Shown: positions 36,081 through 41,619 of the stretch, in pieces
Position numbering within the stretch: position 1 is the stretch's first letter
Layout of the letters: each line of letters begins with the position of its first letter
DNA from: Candidatus Bathyarchaeia archaeon
Lineage (GTDB): Archaea > Thermoproteota > Bathyarchaeia > Bathyarchaeales > Bathycorpusculaceae
DNA length: 64,000 nucleotides
Assembly (NCBI GenBank): GCA_038728085.1
Contig: JAVYUU010000002.1
Location: 186,001-250,000 of the forward strand
Direction: 5' to 3'
The notes under the pieces: model-generated
The model's input: the letters and a program-made list of their open reading frames with translations, nothing else
Databases searched by the model: none
Told to the model about the DNA's origin: nothing
Made by a program: the position numbers and the translations under genes

Positions 36081-36150
36081 AACAAACATCCACATGACAG
36101 CCACTATGCAACCGCAAGCCCAAGTAAATAAGGCTTTGCCAAAAACGGGC

Positions 36151-36194
36151 AAATGGCGGGCCCGCCGGGAATTGAACCCGGGACCTACGGGTTA
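36151..36194. repeat. attL, 44-bp direct repeat (displaced tRNA-Lys 3' half)
   Basis: Identical over 44 bases to 41483-41526. It covers tRNA-Lys from anticodon position 36 through the encoded CCA plus three flanking bases. Homology stops immediately after (ttaGAGG here against ttaAGAG in the intact gene). No 5' half is present, so this is not a working tRNA. Confidence 0.93.
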
Positions 36195-37085
36195 GAGGCG
36201 AAAACCTACGGTTTCCGCGCTTCCCTTGGCGATTTAGGCGATTTCTATGATTTTTTGGTTGTGGATTTGCAGAAAAGTCCATGCACGGCTAAGTGTTATG
36301 TTGGTGTTGTTAGGCGGTTTCTAAGTTGGCTTGATGGTGGCTGTTTAAGTGTTGAGGCTGTTCGCGGTTTTCTGCGGCGGGTTAATGGGGAGTGCAGTCG
36401 GGACCGTTATAATTTGACGCTTAGCGCTTTGAAGGCTTACCTTAGGGATTTTTTGGGGTTGGGGTGGCTTGTGGCTGGTTTTAAACATCCGCCTAAAGTG
36501 TTTAAGCCTAAAACTATTCCAAGCCGTGAGGATTTGAGGCGGTTTTACATGGCTTTGCCAAGCCTTAGGCTTAAAGCGTATTTTCTGGTGGCTGCCAGCA
36601 GCGGTTTGAGGCGGGGCGAAATTTTGGGTTTAACGTTGGATGATGTGGATTTTGAAAGGCGTATGCTTCGCCCCCACAGCCATAAGGGCGCCTCTAAACA
36701 TTCATGGGTTAGCTTCTACAACCGTGAAGCCGAGGAAGCCTTGAAGGTTTACAGGGCGAGTTTGAAGGGTAAAGCAGCAAGGTCGAATAGGCTTTTCCCG
36801 ATAAGCATCCGCGACTTCAAGGCTGAATGGCGAGCAGCCCAGCTTAAAACCGGCTTGAAGATTACAAGTAAAAGCCTCCGCGACTGGTTTGCTGAGGAGA
36901 TGAGCCGCCTAGGCGTTGCTGACCGCTACATAGACGCTTTTCAGGGGCGCACTCCCGCCTCAATACTGGCTAGACACTATACGGACTATTCGCCTACAAA
37001 GCTTAGGGAGATTTATGAAAAGGCAAACCTGAAAATTCTAGAAGCAGAAAAAGAGGGGGAAGTTGGTGTAGGCGGATCCGCCTAG
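36153..37085 (+). CDS. int: SSV-type tyrosine integrase, int(C) catalytic part
   Basis: A 310-aa archaeal tyrosine recombinase. The first 14 residues (MAGPPGIEPGTYGL) are translated attachment site, like PPGFEPGTSG in SSV1 integrase. After an alpha-helical core-binding domain (about 25-115) the catalytic residues fit the SSV order: R153 (GLRRGEI), K178 (HSHKG), R243 in KSLRDW where the usual box His is Lys, R266 (QGRTP) and Y276 (ARHYTDY). Integration has cut off its N-terminal part, int(N), now at 41254-41526. The ATG within the repeat may permit weak expression. Confidence 0.88.
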   Translation: MAGPPGIEPGTYGLEAKTYGFRASLGDLGDFYDFLVVDLQKSPCTAKCYVGVVRRFLSWLDGGCLSVEAVRGFLRRVNGECSRDRYNLTLSALKAYLRDFLGLGWLVAGFKHPPKVFKPKTIPSREDLRRFYMALPSLRLKAYFLVAASSGLRRGEILGLTLDDVDFERRMLRPHSHKGASKHSWVSFYNREAEEALKVYRASLKGKAARSNRLFPISIRDFKAEWRAAQLKTGLKITSKSLRDWFAEEMSRLGVADRYIDAFQGRTPASILARHYTDYSPTKLREIYEKANLKILEAEKEGEVGVGGSA

Positions 37086-37324
37086 AATCCTCCGCCTCTT
37101 CCTCCGCTGAAGAAGGTTAGGAGGGCTACTGCTCCTACGATGAGCGGCAATATCACCAGAAGCCCGAATACTGTCCAAACGTTGTTTACTAGGCTTGTCC
37201 AGGTGGCGTTTGCTTGGGCGCTCCAGCCTGAACGGTTTACAGAGTTTATCAGGGTGCCTACGACAACCATGCCTATCATGAATGCTATGATGATGCCTAT
37301 TACCGCGCCTATAACAGCCCTCAA
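37082..37324 (-). CDS. Small two-helix membrane protein, possible virion coat protein
   Basis: 80 aa: a hydrophobic helix right at the N-terminus (about 4-27), a polar 25-residue middle with Asn and three Trp (SGWSAQANATWTSLVNNVW), a second helix (about 51-72) and a short Gly-rich tail. This layout and the Asn/Ser/Thr middle resemble the VP1/VP3 coat proteins of spindle-shaped archaeal viruses. Overlaps the int stop by 4 bases. The virion role is an inference. Confidence 0.6.
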   Translation of the reverse strand: MRAVIGAVIGIIIAFMIGMVVVGTLINSVNRSGWSAQANATWTSLVNNVWTVFGLLVILPLIVGAVALLTFFSGGRGGGF

Positions 37325-37408
37325 AGTTTAAACCTCTCCAGAGAAATTTAGAGAGCGGATTGAACGTTTAAACTTTTTAGTGATTACACTAGTGATGATA
37401 CATTCTCT

Positions 37409-37975
37409 TCAGCCTTGTTCTAACATGGTTGAGGCTTCTCGGAGCAGGAGTGCACACGCCCGCTTAAGCCCATGCGAATAGAGAAGCTGGGCGCCCTGCA
37501 TAAGCTCATAGAAGCCATCATCTTCACAGTTTGAGTTTTGAGGCTTAAGCGTGGGCTTCGCTTCAGCCTTATTTTCCCTCTCCCTCATTTTCATTTTACG
37601 CAAAACAGTCGTGGCGCTGGTTTTGAAGCCCATTTCCCTAAGCCTTTCAGCAATCCGCATATAACTGAAACCCTGATCTCGCATGTTCTCAACAAGCTTG
37701 AAGGTTTCCTCGTTCCACACGAGAGGCTTAAGATCCGGCTTAGGCTGTTGCTGAGAAGCCGATGGGGCTTGCGGTGGTTCAGAAACGCTGTTCTTTTTGC
37801 GGACAAGAAAAACCATGCGGTTGTTTAGGGCTGACTGGAAAACTGAACAGTTTTCAGCCTTCAACTGCTCAGCCCATTCCGACTTGAAGGCTTGAGGTGG
37901 AATAATCAAGCAGACGCCATAGGGCTCGACAAAATCTTCAGGGAAACTTTCAGCTAATTGTTCATAGAGGCTCAA
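37409..37975 (-). CDS. Helix-turn-helix protein of the element
   Basis: 188 aa. The middle (VENMRDQGFSYMRIAERLREMG, then KTSATTVLRKMKMRE) is a resolvase-like helix-turn-helix, reached after a Pro/Gln-rich linker (SASQQQPKPDLKP). The N-terminal 60 residues form an alpha/beta unit; the C-terminal helix (LLYSHGLKRACALLLREAS) may dimerise. Likely a regulator or accessory recombination protein. TTG start. Confidence 0.6.
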   Translation of the reverse strand: MSLYEQLAESFPEDFVEPYGVCLIIPPQAFKSEWAEQLKAENCSVFQSALNNRMVFLVRKKNSVSEPPQAPSASQQQPKPDLKPLVWNEETFKLVENMRDQGFSYMRIAERLREMGFKTSATTVLRKMKMRERENKAEAKPTLKPQNSNCEDDGFYELMQGAQLLYSHGLKRACALLLREASTMLEQG

Positions 37976-38067
37976 GCCCGCAAGCCCTTATAATATTGAG
38001 GCAACTGAGCATTTAAAGAGTTTCCCCAGCCCAAGCCCAACCAAACGTCTTTCGGGTTTGCTCATTA

Positions 38068-38086
38068 GACATTATTTTGTAATGTC
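38068..38086. repeat. Perfect 7-bp inverted repeat
   Basis: GACATTA-TTTTG-TAATGTC. Arms of 7 bases with a 5-base spacer. Confidence 0.75.
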
Positions 38087-38175
38087 CAACACATGAAAGC
38101 CTCACCGAAAAGAAGCCAGAAAAAAGCCCCGTTTGAGCCCGTATTAATTAATCACATATATATACGGGTGAATGA

Positions 38176-38198
38176 GTTTCGGTCTACTGCACCGAAAC
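38176..38198. repeat. Perfect 8-bp inverted repeat
   Basis: GTTTCGGT, spacer CTACTGC, ACCGAAAC. Sits just after the AT-rich stretch; operator or origin hairpin. Confidence 0.75.
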
Positions 38199-38373
38199 CA
38201 TGAACTTCAACATTCAAACCATACACTTAACTGTATAAGCCCTTTAATGCGGTGGTTTCGTCTAGGTGTATATACATACAAGGGCTGTCGGCAGTTAAAC
38301 CACGTATTCCCTGACTCTCTTAACACGCTCCCTATCTCTACGCAAATTCTCACTTGTCAGAAGATTCTCAAGC

Positions 38374-38559
38374 CTAAGCTGAATGAGAATTTCCCTGTCC
38401 ACTAAATCCTGAAGGCTCCGCTTCCGCCTCTTCCTTCCGCTCATTTCCAGACAACCGCCTCTCAAGCCAACTCAATAGCCAAACGAGTTTAGAGTGAAAC
38501 CAGAGCCCAATCAAGAAACCACTAATCCAGCCTAACAACAAAAAGCCAACTTCATTCAA
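38374..38559 (-). CDS. Small single-pass membrane protein
   Basis: 61 aa from TTG 38559. One N-terminal hydrophobic helix (VGFLLLGWISGFLIGLWF), then an amphipathic WLLSWLERRL segment and a charged tail. Its start overlaps the preceding stop (TTGA), so it is part of the leftward element operon. Unknown function. Confidence 0.55.
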   Translation of the reverse strand: MNEVGFLLLGWISGFLIGLWFHSKLVWLLSWLERRLSGNERKEEAEAEPSGFSGQGNSHSA

Positions 38560-38729
38560 GCTTTACCACGCTCCCGCTCCAAAATCTGAGGCTCACCATG
38601 GGCTTCATCGGCTCCACCTCCGCCTCCACCCGCCCCTACACACTCACGCCACCACCTGCAAGCCATACAGACAACAGCCGGATACCGCAGAAAACACCCG
38701 AAACATCTAGGCTTACTACGGCTGCTCAT
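38556..38729 (-). CDS. Small Cys-rich, zinc-finger-like protein
   Basis: 57 aa, below the usual length cut-off. ATG 38729 overlaps the upstream stop (ATGA) and the stop overlaps the next TTG, which is the main evidence that it is coding. Cysteines C9, C12, C21 and C24 form a compact CxxC-x8-CxxC pair followed by C30 and a Gly-rich run. Possibly a zinc knuckle; function unknown. Confidence 0.55.
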   Translation of the reverse strand: MSSRSKPRCFGCFLRYPAVVCMACRWWRECVGAGGGGGGADEAHGEPQILERERGKA

Positions 38730-39070
38730 TTACCCACCTTCTTAACAGCCTTCCGCCCCACAATCGGCTTATCAGTAAACTCGAACAGCCAGTAGAAGTA
38801 GCCGCCCCTACGCATTTTACCACCATGCAACTTCAAATCCGCAACCATACTGTCAAAGTCTTTAACGCCATTATTCGCCTCAATCGTCGCCTTCTCATAC
38901 TCGCCCTTATCAGACTCCGCCCGCTCCCACCGGACATTAGCAGGGTCCCACACGGGCTTAGACTCATTCAACTTCTGCGCCAAATCATAGAGATTCTTTT
39001 TCAACTGAACCACAGCCGCCTCAACACCCATGCAGAAATCCATAAGACTATCCAACAACTCCTCATCCAT
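38726..39070 (-). CDS. Element-encoded hypothetical protein
   Basis: 114 aa. The N-terminal part is helical and acidic (DEELLDSLMDFCMGVEAAVVQLKKNL), possibly coiled coil; the C-terminal part is basic with beta character (MRRGGYFYWLFEFTDKPIVGR). Overlaps both neighbours by 4-8 bases in the leftward operon. No family recognised. Confidence 0.55.
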   Translation of the reverse strand: MDEELLDSLMDFCMGVEAAVVQLKKNLYDLAQKLNESKPVWDPANVRWERAESDKGEYEKATIEANNGVKDFDSMVADLKLHGGKMRRGGYFYWLFEFTDKPIVGRKAVKKVGK

Positions 39071-39530
39071 TCAACTCACCTCCCTCAACCTTTTTCTTAA
39101 CGCGAGAACCATCCTCATCCAACCTGAAAGACGGAGAATCCTTCAACAACCGCTCCATAATAGAGACTATCTCATTCGCAACCTTTTCACGCTCACCAGC
39201 AATCCGCATGAAAACCTCAGCCTCCCGCCCACTCAAAGCCGCCAGTGGCTTAGGCGCACCCACAGGCTTCCCCAACCGCCTCCGCACATAATCCTCAAGA
39301 TAAGCGCCGCTCCGCAACATACAATTCTGAACCCGCCGCAACTCAGCCTCCCGCCTCAACAACAACGCCAACCTAGCCCTCAACCGCAACTCCTCACCAC
39401 CACACCCACCCTCCACAAGAAACCGCTGAACCGCCAAATTCACAGCCCGATTAAAACTAACACCATACTCCCGACAAAACCGCACCAACAACGGATACAA
39501 ATCCCGCCAAAAATTAACCGTCCTACGCAT
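39063..39530 (-). CDS. Element-encoded basic helical protein
   Basis: 155 aa, very Arg-rich and helical. The beginning (YPLLVRFCREYGVSFNRAVNLAVQRFL) has ribbon-helix-helix-like spacing; the middle (LRLRARLALLLRREAELRRVQ) is a probable coiled coil. May bind DNA. ATG start follows a GAGGTGG site and a stop codon one base upstream. Unknown function. Confidence 0.55.
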   Translation of the reverse strand: MRRTVNFWRDLYPLLVRFCREYGVSFNRAVNLAVQRFLVEGGCGGEELRLRARLALLLRREAELRRVQNCMLRSGAYLEDYVRRRLGKPVGAPKPLAALSGREAEVFMRIAGEREKVANEIVSIMERLLKDSPSFRLDEDGSRVKKKVEGGELNG

Positions 39531-39531
39531 A

Positions 39532-39885
39532 CTAGGACACCACCTCTACGGCTTCTAAAGGCGAAAGGTGACACCTCAACTGAACGGCTTGAAAACGACT
39601 TGTTTCGCCGAAAACAGCTTGAAAAAAGCCGCTTTCACCCACCCTTTCAGGGTGACACCTTTCACCCCTAGAAGCCGAAGCGGTAGCCCTCTTGTAGGGG
39701 CATGGTGTTGTGCATAGGGTTATTGTTGAGTTTGAGCGTGTGCAGTTGGTGTAGCCTAAATTGTCGGTTATGGCGTGGGGGCAGTTTTGCGGTGGTGTTA
39801 TATGTGGTTTGGTGTTGTTTGTTGTGTGGGGGTGGGTGGTTGGCTGCGGCTTGTTCGCCTTTACGGGTTGGCTGTTTGTCTGCAT
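39532..39885 (-). CDS. Element-encoded Cys-containing protein
   Basis: 117 aa. After a Thr/Pro/Asn/His-rich start there are four cysteines (C35, C48, C58, C62; CPHAITD, YTNC, TLCTTPCPY), a possible zinc site. A good ribosome site (GGTGAAGG) precedes ATG 39885 and its stop is next to the following start, supporting a real operon gene. The last third overlaps a long imperfect inverted repeat and may be junk. Confidence 0.45.
   Translation of the reverse strand: MQTNSQPVKANKPQPTTHPHTTNNTKPHITPPQNCPHAITDNLGYTNCTRSNSTITLCTTPCPYKRATASASRGERCHPERVGESGFFQAVFGETSRFQAVQLRCHLSPLEAVEVVS
39549..39677. repeat. Long imperfect inverted repeat
   Basis: Arms 39549-39576 and 39650-39677, both starting (outside in) with CGGCTTCTA, diverging for 5 bases, then sharing GAAAGGTG and CACC. 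The 73-base interior has two GCTTGAAAA repeats. It lies in the 3' part of a small ORF; it could fold as a long hairpin in RNA or DNA. Confidence 0.6.
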
Positions 39886-39892
39886 AGGGCCT

Positions 39893-40147
39893 TCACCCGC
39901 CCTCTCCGTTTTTTCCGCTTGTTTTGAGCAGTTGTTCGATTTCGGGGATGTGGCGGATTATTTTGAGTAGGGTTTCTTGGTTGGGGACGCCTATCCAGAT
40001 GCTGTTTGCTACGCAGAATACGGTGTCGGTTCCATGTTGTTCTACAAATTGTTTTGGGACTGTGAGTAGGTATTGTTTGTAGGTTTTTCCTTCTATTTCC
40101 TTTCTTATTGTTAGGATTTTGCGTTTGGTTATGGTTAGTTCAGCCAT
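39893..40147 (-). CDS. AbrB/SpoVT-like DNA-binding protein
   Basis: 84 aa. The core TYKQYLLTVPKQFVEQHGTDTVFCV matches the swapped-hairpin AbrB pattern (xxxTVPKxFVxxxG). Likely autoregulates the leftward element operon as its first gene; divergent from the winged-helix gene across a hairpin-rich spacer. Confidence 0.65.
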   Translation of the reverse strand: MAELTITKRKILTIRKEIEGKTYKQYLLTVPKQFVEQHGTDTVFCVANSIWIGVPNQETLLKIIRHIPEIEQLLKTSGKNGEGG

Positions 40148-40173
40148 TTTATCACGCTCCTAAAGCTTGTTTC

Positions 40174-40196
40174 GCCAGCCCCGCGTGTGGGCTGGC
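40174..40196. repeat. Perfect 8-bp inverted repeat
   Basis: GCCAGCCC, spacer CGCGTGT, GGGCTGGC. Just upstream of the AbrB-like gene; operator or hairpin. Confidence 0.75.
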
Positions 40197-40281
40197 TTTG
40201 AAACAGAAAAAGGTGGGACGGCTGTTTACTGTTTTGTCCTGTGCCCCGCCGTTGAGGGTGCCCTTCACTTTTCCGGGCTCC

Positions 40282-40303
40282 CTACACGAGAAGGCTCGTG
40301 TAG
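40282..40303. repeat. Perfect 9-bp inverted repeat
   Basis: CTACACGAG, loop AAGG, CTCGTGTAG. In the divergent spacer about 85 bases before the winged-helix gene; a strong hairpin, perhaps an operator. Confidence 0.78.
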
Positions 40304-40385
40304 TTCATTTGATTATGAGTTGAATATGGAAACTATTAAATACTTCGTTTTGAAATAATTATTATTCGAATTTGAGGTTTTGAAA

Positions 40386-41261
40386 ATGAATAATTCAAAT
40401 TCAGATAGCAAAAATCGGAGTATCCGCAGAAAAGAAGACAAAGCTAAGCGGAAAACATTGATTCGATTAATTGGAAAGGATAGAATAGACAGCAGAAGTT
40501 ACCAGAATTTGAAGGCTGTTTTCCGCTTTATAGGAAACCGTGAAGAGTTTACAGGACCGCAAATTAGGAAGAATACTGGAATCAGAGATTCTGTTCTCTA
40601 TGATCTGCTCGACTCTTTAAAGAGTAGAGGTCTAATCGAGGAGGCTGGGAGCTTTAAAAGTCCAGGTAGGGGTGAAACCATAGTTTACCGTTTAACCCTT
40701 GCGGGGAAGATTGTAGCATCCTACGTTAATAATGATGCTAGGCTTTTAACTTCCGCTCTCAGAGAAGTTGCAGAGAGAGAGGCTAACCCTCTCAAACAGT
40801 TCTTTATCGAGGCTTTCCTAGAAAACTATCCAGGCGAATTAATGCGGGAAATTTTGGAAATTTCCATTAGCACAATTAAAGATTTAGAGGAAGGCTTCGA
40901 CGTTGACGACTTGCTAAGCTACGTTTTCGAGGAAGCCTTCATCATGATGCCTTTCATAGAGATGGATAAAGAGTTAGAGGCTGTTTTCAGAAAAAATGCT
41001 GAATTAATGGAGAAGTCGCCTCACCGAGATTGGATTTTCACCTACCTTAAAATGCAGTTGGAAAGCAACTTCCTATACATACTTGAAGGCGAAAAGCTGG
41101 CAAAATATGCAGAGTCTTTAAAGTTGAACCCTCAGCTTCTACATATTCCATGCGAAAACCCAGAATGCACCAACGTTATTATGGTTGACAGCTTGCTTAA
41201 AATGAGCATCCCCACATATTGCGGAAAATGCAAAGCTAAAGAGGGAGCTAATAATGATTGA
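40386..41261 (+). CDS. Winged-helix transcription regulator with C-terminal zinc motif
   Basis: 291 aa from ATG 40386. After a basic N-terminus comes a winged helix (about 40-105: FTGPQIRKNTGIRDSVLYDLLDSLKSRGLI, then a GETIVYRLT wing), a long helical middle, and a C-terminal four-Cys unit (CENPEC ... CGKC). Overlaps int(N) by 8 bases, so it probably governs integrase expression in the circular form. Confidence 0.72.
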   Translation: MNNSNSDSKNRSIRRKEDKAKRKTLIRLIGKDRIDSRSYQNLKAVFRFIGNREEFTGPQIRKNTGIRDSVLYDLLDSLKSRGLIEEAGSFKSPGRGETIVYRLTLAGKIVASYVNNDARLLTSALREVAEREANPLKQFFIEAFLENYPGELMREILEISISTIKDLEEGFDVDDLLSYVFEEAFIMMPFIEMDKELEAVFRKNAELMEKSPHRDWIFTYLKMQLESNFLYILEGEKLAKYAESLKLNPQLLHIPCENPECTNVIMVDSLLKMSIPTYCGKCKAKEGANND

Positions 41262-41619
41262 GGAGGCTTTGAGCCATCAAACAGGCTCCTCGAGGAAAAC
41301 TGCGGCTCCTCGAGGAGAAAAAATCACGGTGGGCGTTTACCTCCCCAAAACCCTAGTGGAAAAGGCACGCAAACACGGCTTAAACCTGTCCAGAATCCTC
41401 ACAGAAGCCCTCACAAGCCAAATAAACGCCATAGAAAACCGCAACAGCCAAAACAAGGGAGGTTTCGGAACCGTAGGTTCTGAAATGGCGGGCCCGCCGG
41501 GAATTGAACCCGGGACCTACGGGTTAAGAGCCTCAACCCATCCCGCGCAGCGGTTTGGTCCGCCGCTCTACCTTGCTGAGCTACGGGCCCATTGGCATAT
41601 TCTAGAATATGCATTTTAG
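41254..41619 (+). CDS. int(N): ribbon-helix-helix N-terminal part of the partitioned integrase
   Basis: The element part (about 91 aa to the repeat end) has a ribbon-helix-helix-like segment, ITVGVYLPKTLVEKARKHGLNLSRILTEAL, close to CcdA/CopG antitoxins. It then reads SEMAGPPGIEPGTYGL through the right repeat in the same frame that starts int(C). In the circular element it would continue into the catalytic domain, giving one protein of roughly 390 aa. In the integrated state it reads on into the tRNA gene and stops at 41619, so the last 30 residues are not functional sequence. Confidence 0.75.
   Translation: MIEEALSHQTGSSRKTAAPRGEKITVGVYLPKTLVEKARKHGLNLSRILTEALTSQINAIENRNSQNKGGFGTVGSEMAGPPGIEPGTYGLRASTHPAQRFGPPLYLAELRAHWHILEYAF
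41483..41526. repeat. attR, 44-bp direct repeat inside tRNA-Lys
   Basis: Identical to 36151-36194. It restores the 3' half of the tRNA-Lys gene at the right boundary of the element. Confidence 0.93.
41486..41590 (-). tRNA. tRNA-Lys(CTT) with an intron, CCA encoded
   Basis: Reverse strand from 41590: acceptor GGGCCCG pairs with CGGGCCC, then G73 and encoded CCA. D arm GCTC/GAGC, T arm CCGGG-TTCAATT-CCCGG. The anticodon arm is GCGGG-CTCTTAA-CCCGT only if 28 bases (about ACCAAACC...GGTTGAG) are removed within the 5' anticodon stem, near position 30/31, leaving a 74-base tRNA. The AACC/GGTT pair could be the central helix of a bulge-helix-bulge. Intron edges are uncertain by one base. It is the integration site of the element. 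Confidence 0.88.

Follow-up and report, generated by a model that had tools for sequence, protein, structure and literature searches.

A probable 5.3-kb mobile element at an archaeal tRNA-Lys gene divides a ribbon-helix-helix-bearing tyrosine recombinase gene

Are two coding regions at opposite ends of a repeat-bounded segment the parts of one integrase gene, divided by its own integration? This question is raised by positions 36151 to 41526 of the stretch analysed here, 64,000 nucleotides from a Candidatus Bathyarchaeia archaeon (contig JAVYUU010000002.1, positions 186,001 to 250,000; hereafter the window). A preliminary description, made from the sequence alone, had proposed such a split, with a putative ribbon-helix-helix (RHH) domain at the N-terminus of the enzyme. 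Our analysis makes it very likely that the 5.3-kb segment is a mobile element whose own tyrosine recombinase inserted it at the 3' half of a tRNA-Lys(CTT) gene, and that the gene of this recombinase was split in the process. The features concerned, with att denoting attachment sites, are as follows.

36151..36194, no strand: attL, 44 bp identical to the 3' part of tRNA-Lys(CTT)
36153..37085, plus strand: int(C), 310 amino acids (aa), tyrosine recombinase with core-binding and catalytic domains
41254..41526, plus strand: int(N), CcdA-type RHH domain at residues 25-64 (41326-41445), followed by a linker entering attR in frame
41483..41526, no strand: attR, the 44-bp repeat within the intact tRNA gene
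41486..41590, minus strand: tRNA-Lys(CTT), the integration target, CCA encoded, 28-nt intron at about 41531-41559

The two repeats are indeed identical over their 44 bp, as had been described, with a start-to-start distance of 5332 bp, and no other long direct repeat was found between 34000 and 44000. They correspond to the minus-strand sequence of tRNA-Lys(CTT) from the anticodon loop to three bases beyond the encoded CCA, and int(N) runs antisense into the tRNA gene. The intact tRNA gene scores 51.9 bits with Rfam, in agreement with ARAGORN when introns are permitted, while ARAGORN without introns (bacterial mode) failed to call it because of the intron. This intron occupies a non-canonical position some five bases off the end of the att site, and is retained in congeners at both of their tRNA-Lys loci. 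The sequence adjoining attL on the left is also present beside an intact tRNA-Lys(CTT) gene in the congener G077.

Of the two halves, int(C), residues 1-14 of which are encoded by attL, is recognised by Pfam as PF00589 (Phage_integrase; 1.8e-13, 51 bits), scoring higher than the archaeal PF16795 (2.3e-9, 37.8 bits with a cut-off of 27), and also matches a PHROG integrase (5e-23). The sole Pfam family matched by int(N) is the RHH family CcdA (2e-6, above the family cut-off), and an alignment of 19 int(N) or fused N-ends leads to the same assignment; the domain comprises a beta-alpha-alpha unit of about 45 residues, as the RHH fold demands. In silico joining of 41254-41526 to 36195-37085 yields a single stop-free open reading frame (ORF) of 387 residues with exactly matching frames, where about 390 had been anticipated from the frame shared by the right ORF and int(C) across the repeats. 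The joined protein carries the catalytic residues that were foreseen (R, K, Lys for His, R and Y), namely R230, K259, K317 at the HxxR position with R320, R343 and Y353. In the integrated state, the int(N) ORF extends to 121 aa, including a tail of approximately 45 residues derived from the tRNA strand and beyond. Taken together, the att site lies within the integrase gene, with int(N) and int(C) at opposite ends of the element, it forms part of a tRNA gene that one side keeps whole, and the PF16795 catalytic domain exceeds its cut-off, which is the architecture of the SSV-type (type I, suicidal) integrases, named after the Sulfolobus spindle-shaped viruses (SSV).

Relatives were searched in 163 genomes of the order, 47 of which contain matches, and the surrounding loci hold RHH-encoding int(N) ORFs that enter many different tRNA genes. 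Ten complete elements could be closed (3.2-14.2 kb, various tRNAs, att of 21-48 bp): the window element (Lys), L055 (Glu, 4.1 kb), L034, L040, L042, L044, L054, L063, L111 and L215, with L063 and L215 using the tRNA 5' half. The att junction is in frame in all ten, for which the frame alone has a chance expectation of approximately 2e-5, and the joined ORFs span 323-403 residues (counted from the preceding stop) in nine, the core of the tenth, L054, being interrupted by a later frameshift. L055 belongs to the same genome as the window (G000; contig C5, L055:5698-9816), where it resides at tRNA-Glu(TTC) with its own RHH-type int(N), and has 1.6 kb of cargo in common with the window element at 83% identity, starting where int(C) ends. 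Decayed or partial RHH-type int(N) sequences were also noted directly outside attL of integrated elements (L034:4195-4446 and L040:9364-10284), which suggests that one tRNA received insertions repeatedly or in tandem; a supposed int(N) remnant beside a tRNA in G078 proved to be merely the antisense strand of the tRNA.

Unsplit homologues, proposed earlier as the test of the fusion, were recovered as well. Uninterrupted RHH-integrase ORFs occur in Bathyarchaeota (L037/L101, 383 aa; L047, 394 aa; L051, 362 aa; L107, 356 aa; truncated in L038 and L040), and a divergent RHH-like head is present in the free plasmids pT26-2 and pGE2. Further uninterrupted forms, with the RHH domain fused to the same core family, are found in haloarchaea: L118 (Halonotius pteroides), L131 (Haloquadratum) and probably L112. 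The last of these (JAGXLQ010000070) is a contig labelled Bipolaricaulota that bears a haloarchaeal-type RHH-integrase, and is probably mis-binned from a saline sample. Of 72 integrase ORFs, 38 contain a tRNA B-box motif, usually immediately 5' of the core, and in several of the unsplit Bathyarchaeota forms it is read antisense in the linker. None was detected in the linkers of the haloarchaeal proteins, which are therefore probably not self-splitting. Searches of viral contigs with single sequences, a mixed alignment or the A3 scan gave no relatives, and the A2 scan returned four weak integrases only, without an RHH fusion in the two examined (L157 and L158); in phage and plasmid collections, pT26-2 and pGE2 emerged on inspection, and there was otherwise no confident RHH-fused relative. 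That the gene is split, the repeats, the common frame and the existence of unsplit relatives can be read directly from the sequences. Self-splitting integrases are thereby extended to a large set of small elements of Bathyarchaeia and other uncultured archaea, with a core family outside the SSV/pT26-2 clade.

An AlphaFold model of the unsplit L101 protein was generated from a 24-sequence alignment (mean predicted local distance difference test score, pLDDT, 79). The RHH helices are placed within residues 46-79 (46-54 and 59-79, pLDDT about 83-90) and the core-binding and catalytic domains are confidently predicted, mostly above 90, the best PDB matches of the core being XerA. Residues 80-109 in between, predicted to be disordered (pLDDT below 50), represent the att-coded linker in this model. 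The model is of a monomer, and the RHH strand pairs only in the dimer. The att site is accordingly modelled as encoding a flexible tether between two folded parts, so that different tRNAs, different halves (5' in L063 and L215) and different reading frames would be tolerated, offering a simple reason why the att site can lie inside the gene.

The following sequence of events can be envisaged. In the circular form, a single gene would encode the RHH domain, the attP-coded flexible linker, the core-binding domain and the catalytic domain. When the tRNA sequence common to element and chromosome recombines, the tRNA would be rebuilt on one side and the 44-bp fragment left on the other, so that the RHH and catalytic parts come to lie apart. 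The most likely function of the RHH domain is to bring about dimerisation of the enzyme, with further DNA contacts at or close to att, by analogy with the SSV integrase, where the N-end controls multimerisation and Int(C) alone is weak (PMC8371274). Its loss would be expected to cripple int(C), favour one-way integration and lock the element in, with release perhaps occurring once a related element supplies an intact integrase; for the SSV type, excision by an integrase of exogenous source has been reported (PMC8371274). Insertion is supported by the congeners, where each flank is joined to an intact, insert-free tRNA-Lys gene. A few observations nonetheless weigh against this scheme: an empty site with both flanks together was present in none of three congeners, the circular junction has no exact match in the viral contigs, the assembly contains no second copy of the element, and the DNA-binding and dimerising role of the RHH part would be carried over from knowledge of the family.

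Next, we asked where the core of the enzyme belongs. In a tree of 62 cores, a branch with support of 97/86 sets the SSV/pT26-2 clade apart from the window clade, the pNOB8-type integrases and XerA, and the closest archaeal plasmid matches are likewise of the pNOB8 type (e.g. pAH1, 3e-15, versus 1e-6 for fuselloviruses). Forcing the window and L034 into the SSV/pT26-2 clade costs 24.7 log units, although it is not formally rejected (approximately unbiased test, p-AU 0.11). RHH-bearing proteins lie on both sides of the tree, and their union into one clade is rejected (p-AU 5e-5). The domain is hence attached to two distant core clades, and both are represented in the source genome: the window core does not group with pT26-2, whereas those of L055, L063 and L215 do lie on the PF16795/pT26-2 side, so that the window element and L055 share cargo and yet have cores from two different sides of the tree. 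This could mean that self-splitting integrases arose at least twice, the window core descending on the pNOB8/XerA side, a proposal we put forward tentatively and with less than even expectation. A tree uniting the pNOB8-type integrases and XerA, with all others opposite, is not rejected either (p-AU 0.32), a single origin followed by loss, or the transfer of a cassette of N-domain plus att, would look alike, and a 2021 review, in which SSV, pTN3 and pT26-2 are the suicidal families listed, infers that the type originated once (PMC8371274).

The genes between the two halves are listed below.

37082..37324, minus strand: cargo, 80 aa with two hydrophobic stretches, second copy in the tRNA-Glu element L055
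37409..37975, minus strand: cargo, 188 aa, common to L055
38726..39070, minus strand: cargo, 114 aa, homologue in the L034 element
39063..39530, minus strand: cargo ORF, 155 aa, no family match
39893..40147, minus strand: cargo ORF, 84 aa, no family match
40380..41261, plus strand: winged-helix-like protein, 293 aa, weak PadR/TrmB Pfam matches

The winged-helix-like gene ends with its stop 8 bases inside int(N), which is therefore probably its operon partner. Conceivably, as the preliminary description proposed, splitting acts as a switch, where the RHH half is made after integration as a small repressor, directed at its own operon or at superinfecting relatives, and is fused to the recombinase again upon excision. 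We consider this rather unlikely, despite several observations in its favour: the int(N) frame is open and its overlap with the upstream gene hints at co-expression, comparable overlaps or close spacing recur in the L055, L044, L063 and L215 elements, and SSV1 represses its integrase operon with F55, a separate CopG-like RHH protein (PMC8371274; PMC4158269). Short inverted repeats are also slightly enriched 5' of RHH-integrase starts (mean arm 4.8 versus 4.4, p 0.005); such motif tests are however post hoc and include related sequences. Moreover, the left-over protein would bear an arbitrary tail encoded by the tRNA strand, giving 121 aa in the window, and known int(N) and int(C) are called inactive pseudogenes (PMC8371274). 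Separately, ATGTGCA boxes (TGCA-N5-TGCA) are repeated 5' of the RHH start in the haloarchaeal L118, L147, L131 and L134, forming a candidate operator for self-regulation. As a general operator the motif was discarded: although 5 of 38 cases have it and 0.9 would be expected, four of these are haloarchaeal copies related to one another, and the test was made post hoc.

Combining both ideas, the RHH-plus-att front would be a transferable cassette, placed on two distant cores so that self-splitting arose more than once, and the stranded RHH would still serve as repressor or immunity protein, with splitting as a regulatory switch. This compound proposal is more doubtful still. The split RHH-integrase as such makes two questions testable: is the stranded RHH half still active, and does the design have one origin or several?

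Regarding the cargo, 3 of the 163 genomes searched encode the 80-aa two-helix hydrophobic protein, which is present in both elements of the source genome. It bears a faint resemblance to spindle-virus capsid proteins, and with sub-threshold virion-protein matches only (PHROG 0.039, Pfam 0.75) this identity is no more than a lead. A snoRNA candidate at 37259-37332 was discarded, its Rfam match being far under the cut-off and inside a protein gene.

The chromosomal surroundings bear on another explanation, that the locus is a recombination scar between two tRNA-Lys genes holding old fragments, and that the 5.3 kb never moved as a unit. Of the two flanks of the element, at window positions 36150 and 41600, the one with the ABC transporter and the one with dph5 indeed belong to different tRNA-Lys loci in congeners, and the CTT and TTT genes are swapped between these loci. 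The source genome displays the exchanged pair dph5-CTT-element-ABC, and the former partner flanks surround tRNA-Lys(TTT) on contig C4 (G000:C4:148584), corresponding to the reciprocal product. It looks as if chromosome arms were exchanged at tRNA-Lys genes, a natural guess being an integrase-driven or homologous event, since inversions of the Thermococcus chromosome between tRNA genes have been attributed to the suicidal integrase of pTN3 (PMC5495485); mis-assembly at short repeats could also be responsible. A mere scar is nevertheless very improbable, given the matched int(N)/att/int(C) anatomy and the sister element L055, which sits at tRNA-Glu of this genome, has cargo in common and carries a split integrase of its own. 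Finally, RHH genes of the CcdA type often stand alone, and the RHH ORF might be taken for an antitoxin-like or CopG gene that has no relation to the integrase and ends in the tRNA by chance, with the integrase being the catalytic part only. This can practically be dismissed, as it is contradicted by the ten in-frame junctions, the uninterrupted ORFs in several genomes and the same domain order in the pT26-2 integrase.

How, then, does the split RHH-integrase compare with known systems? In the SSV active site K replaces H, as in the window, and SSV1 and SSV2 (Fuselloviridae, with pSSVi) equally have a 44-bp att from a tRNA 3' half, a gene split on integration and attP in the linker (PPGFEPGTSG in SSV, PPGIEPGTYG in the window). 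However, the SSV1 N-domain is PF07935 (2.6e-34) without RHH, PF07935 is absent from the window int(N), the RHH profile fails to align with SSV-type N-domains (hhalign 0.03%), and the cores are only distantly related. Among known archaeal plasmids, the cores closest in sequence are those of the pNOB8-type integrases (pNOB8, pAH1 and pKEF9; profile E 1e-31 to 1e-33), which are however reported as type II, unsplit, and in which the N-part lacks an RHH match. The suicidal integrase of pTN3 targets tRNA 5' halves as in L063 and L215, a likeness at the level of description.

The closest parallel in design is provided by the free plasmids pT26-2 (Thermococcus) and pGE2 (Pyrococcus), with attP in the gene, a tRNA-coded linker and an RHH-like N-domain, and the pT26-2 family, suicidal and type I, is reported to split into Int(N) and Int(C) on integration. 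In both plasmids the N-domain can be aligned with the RHH profile (hhalign 84%, E 7e-6) and has weak CcdA/BrnA hits in Pfam (0.005-0.03, under the CcdA cut-off), while the core falls in another clade than that of the window (PF16795 187 bits, versus 38). An RHH domain is not mentioned in the 2021 review of suicidal integrases (PMC8371274), nor was a description of the pT26-2 N-domain as RHH found in the literature searched, the coverage of which was partial. The RHH N-terminus, earlier held to be new, is therefore new as a description within this literature, but not unique to the window, as many relatives and pT26-2 possess it, and the poorly characterised N-domain of the pT26-2 integrase gains a likely fold. 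Similarly, the earlier assignment to the SSV type holds for the architecture, split at a tRNA 3' end, and not for the core, which lies outside the SSV/pT26-2 clade. Judged from its sequence, the window integrase is of the SSV type in design, but no close relative of the SSV enzymes.

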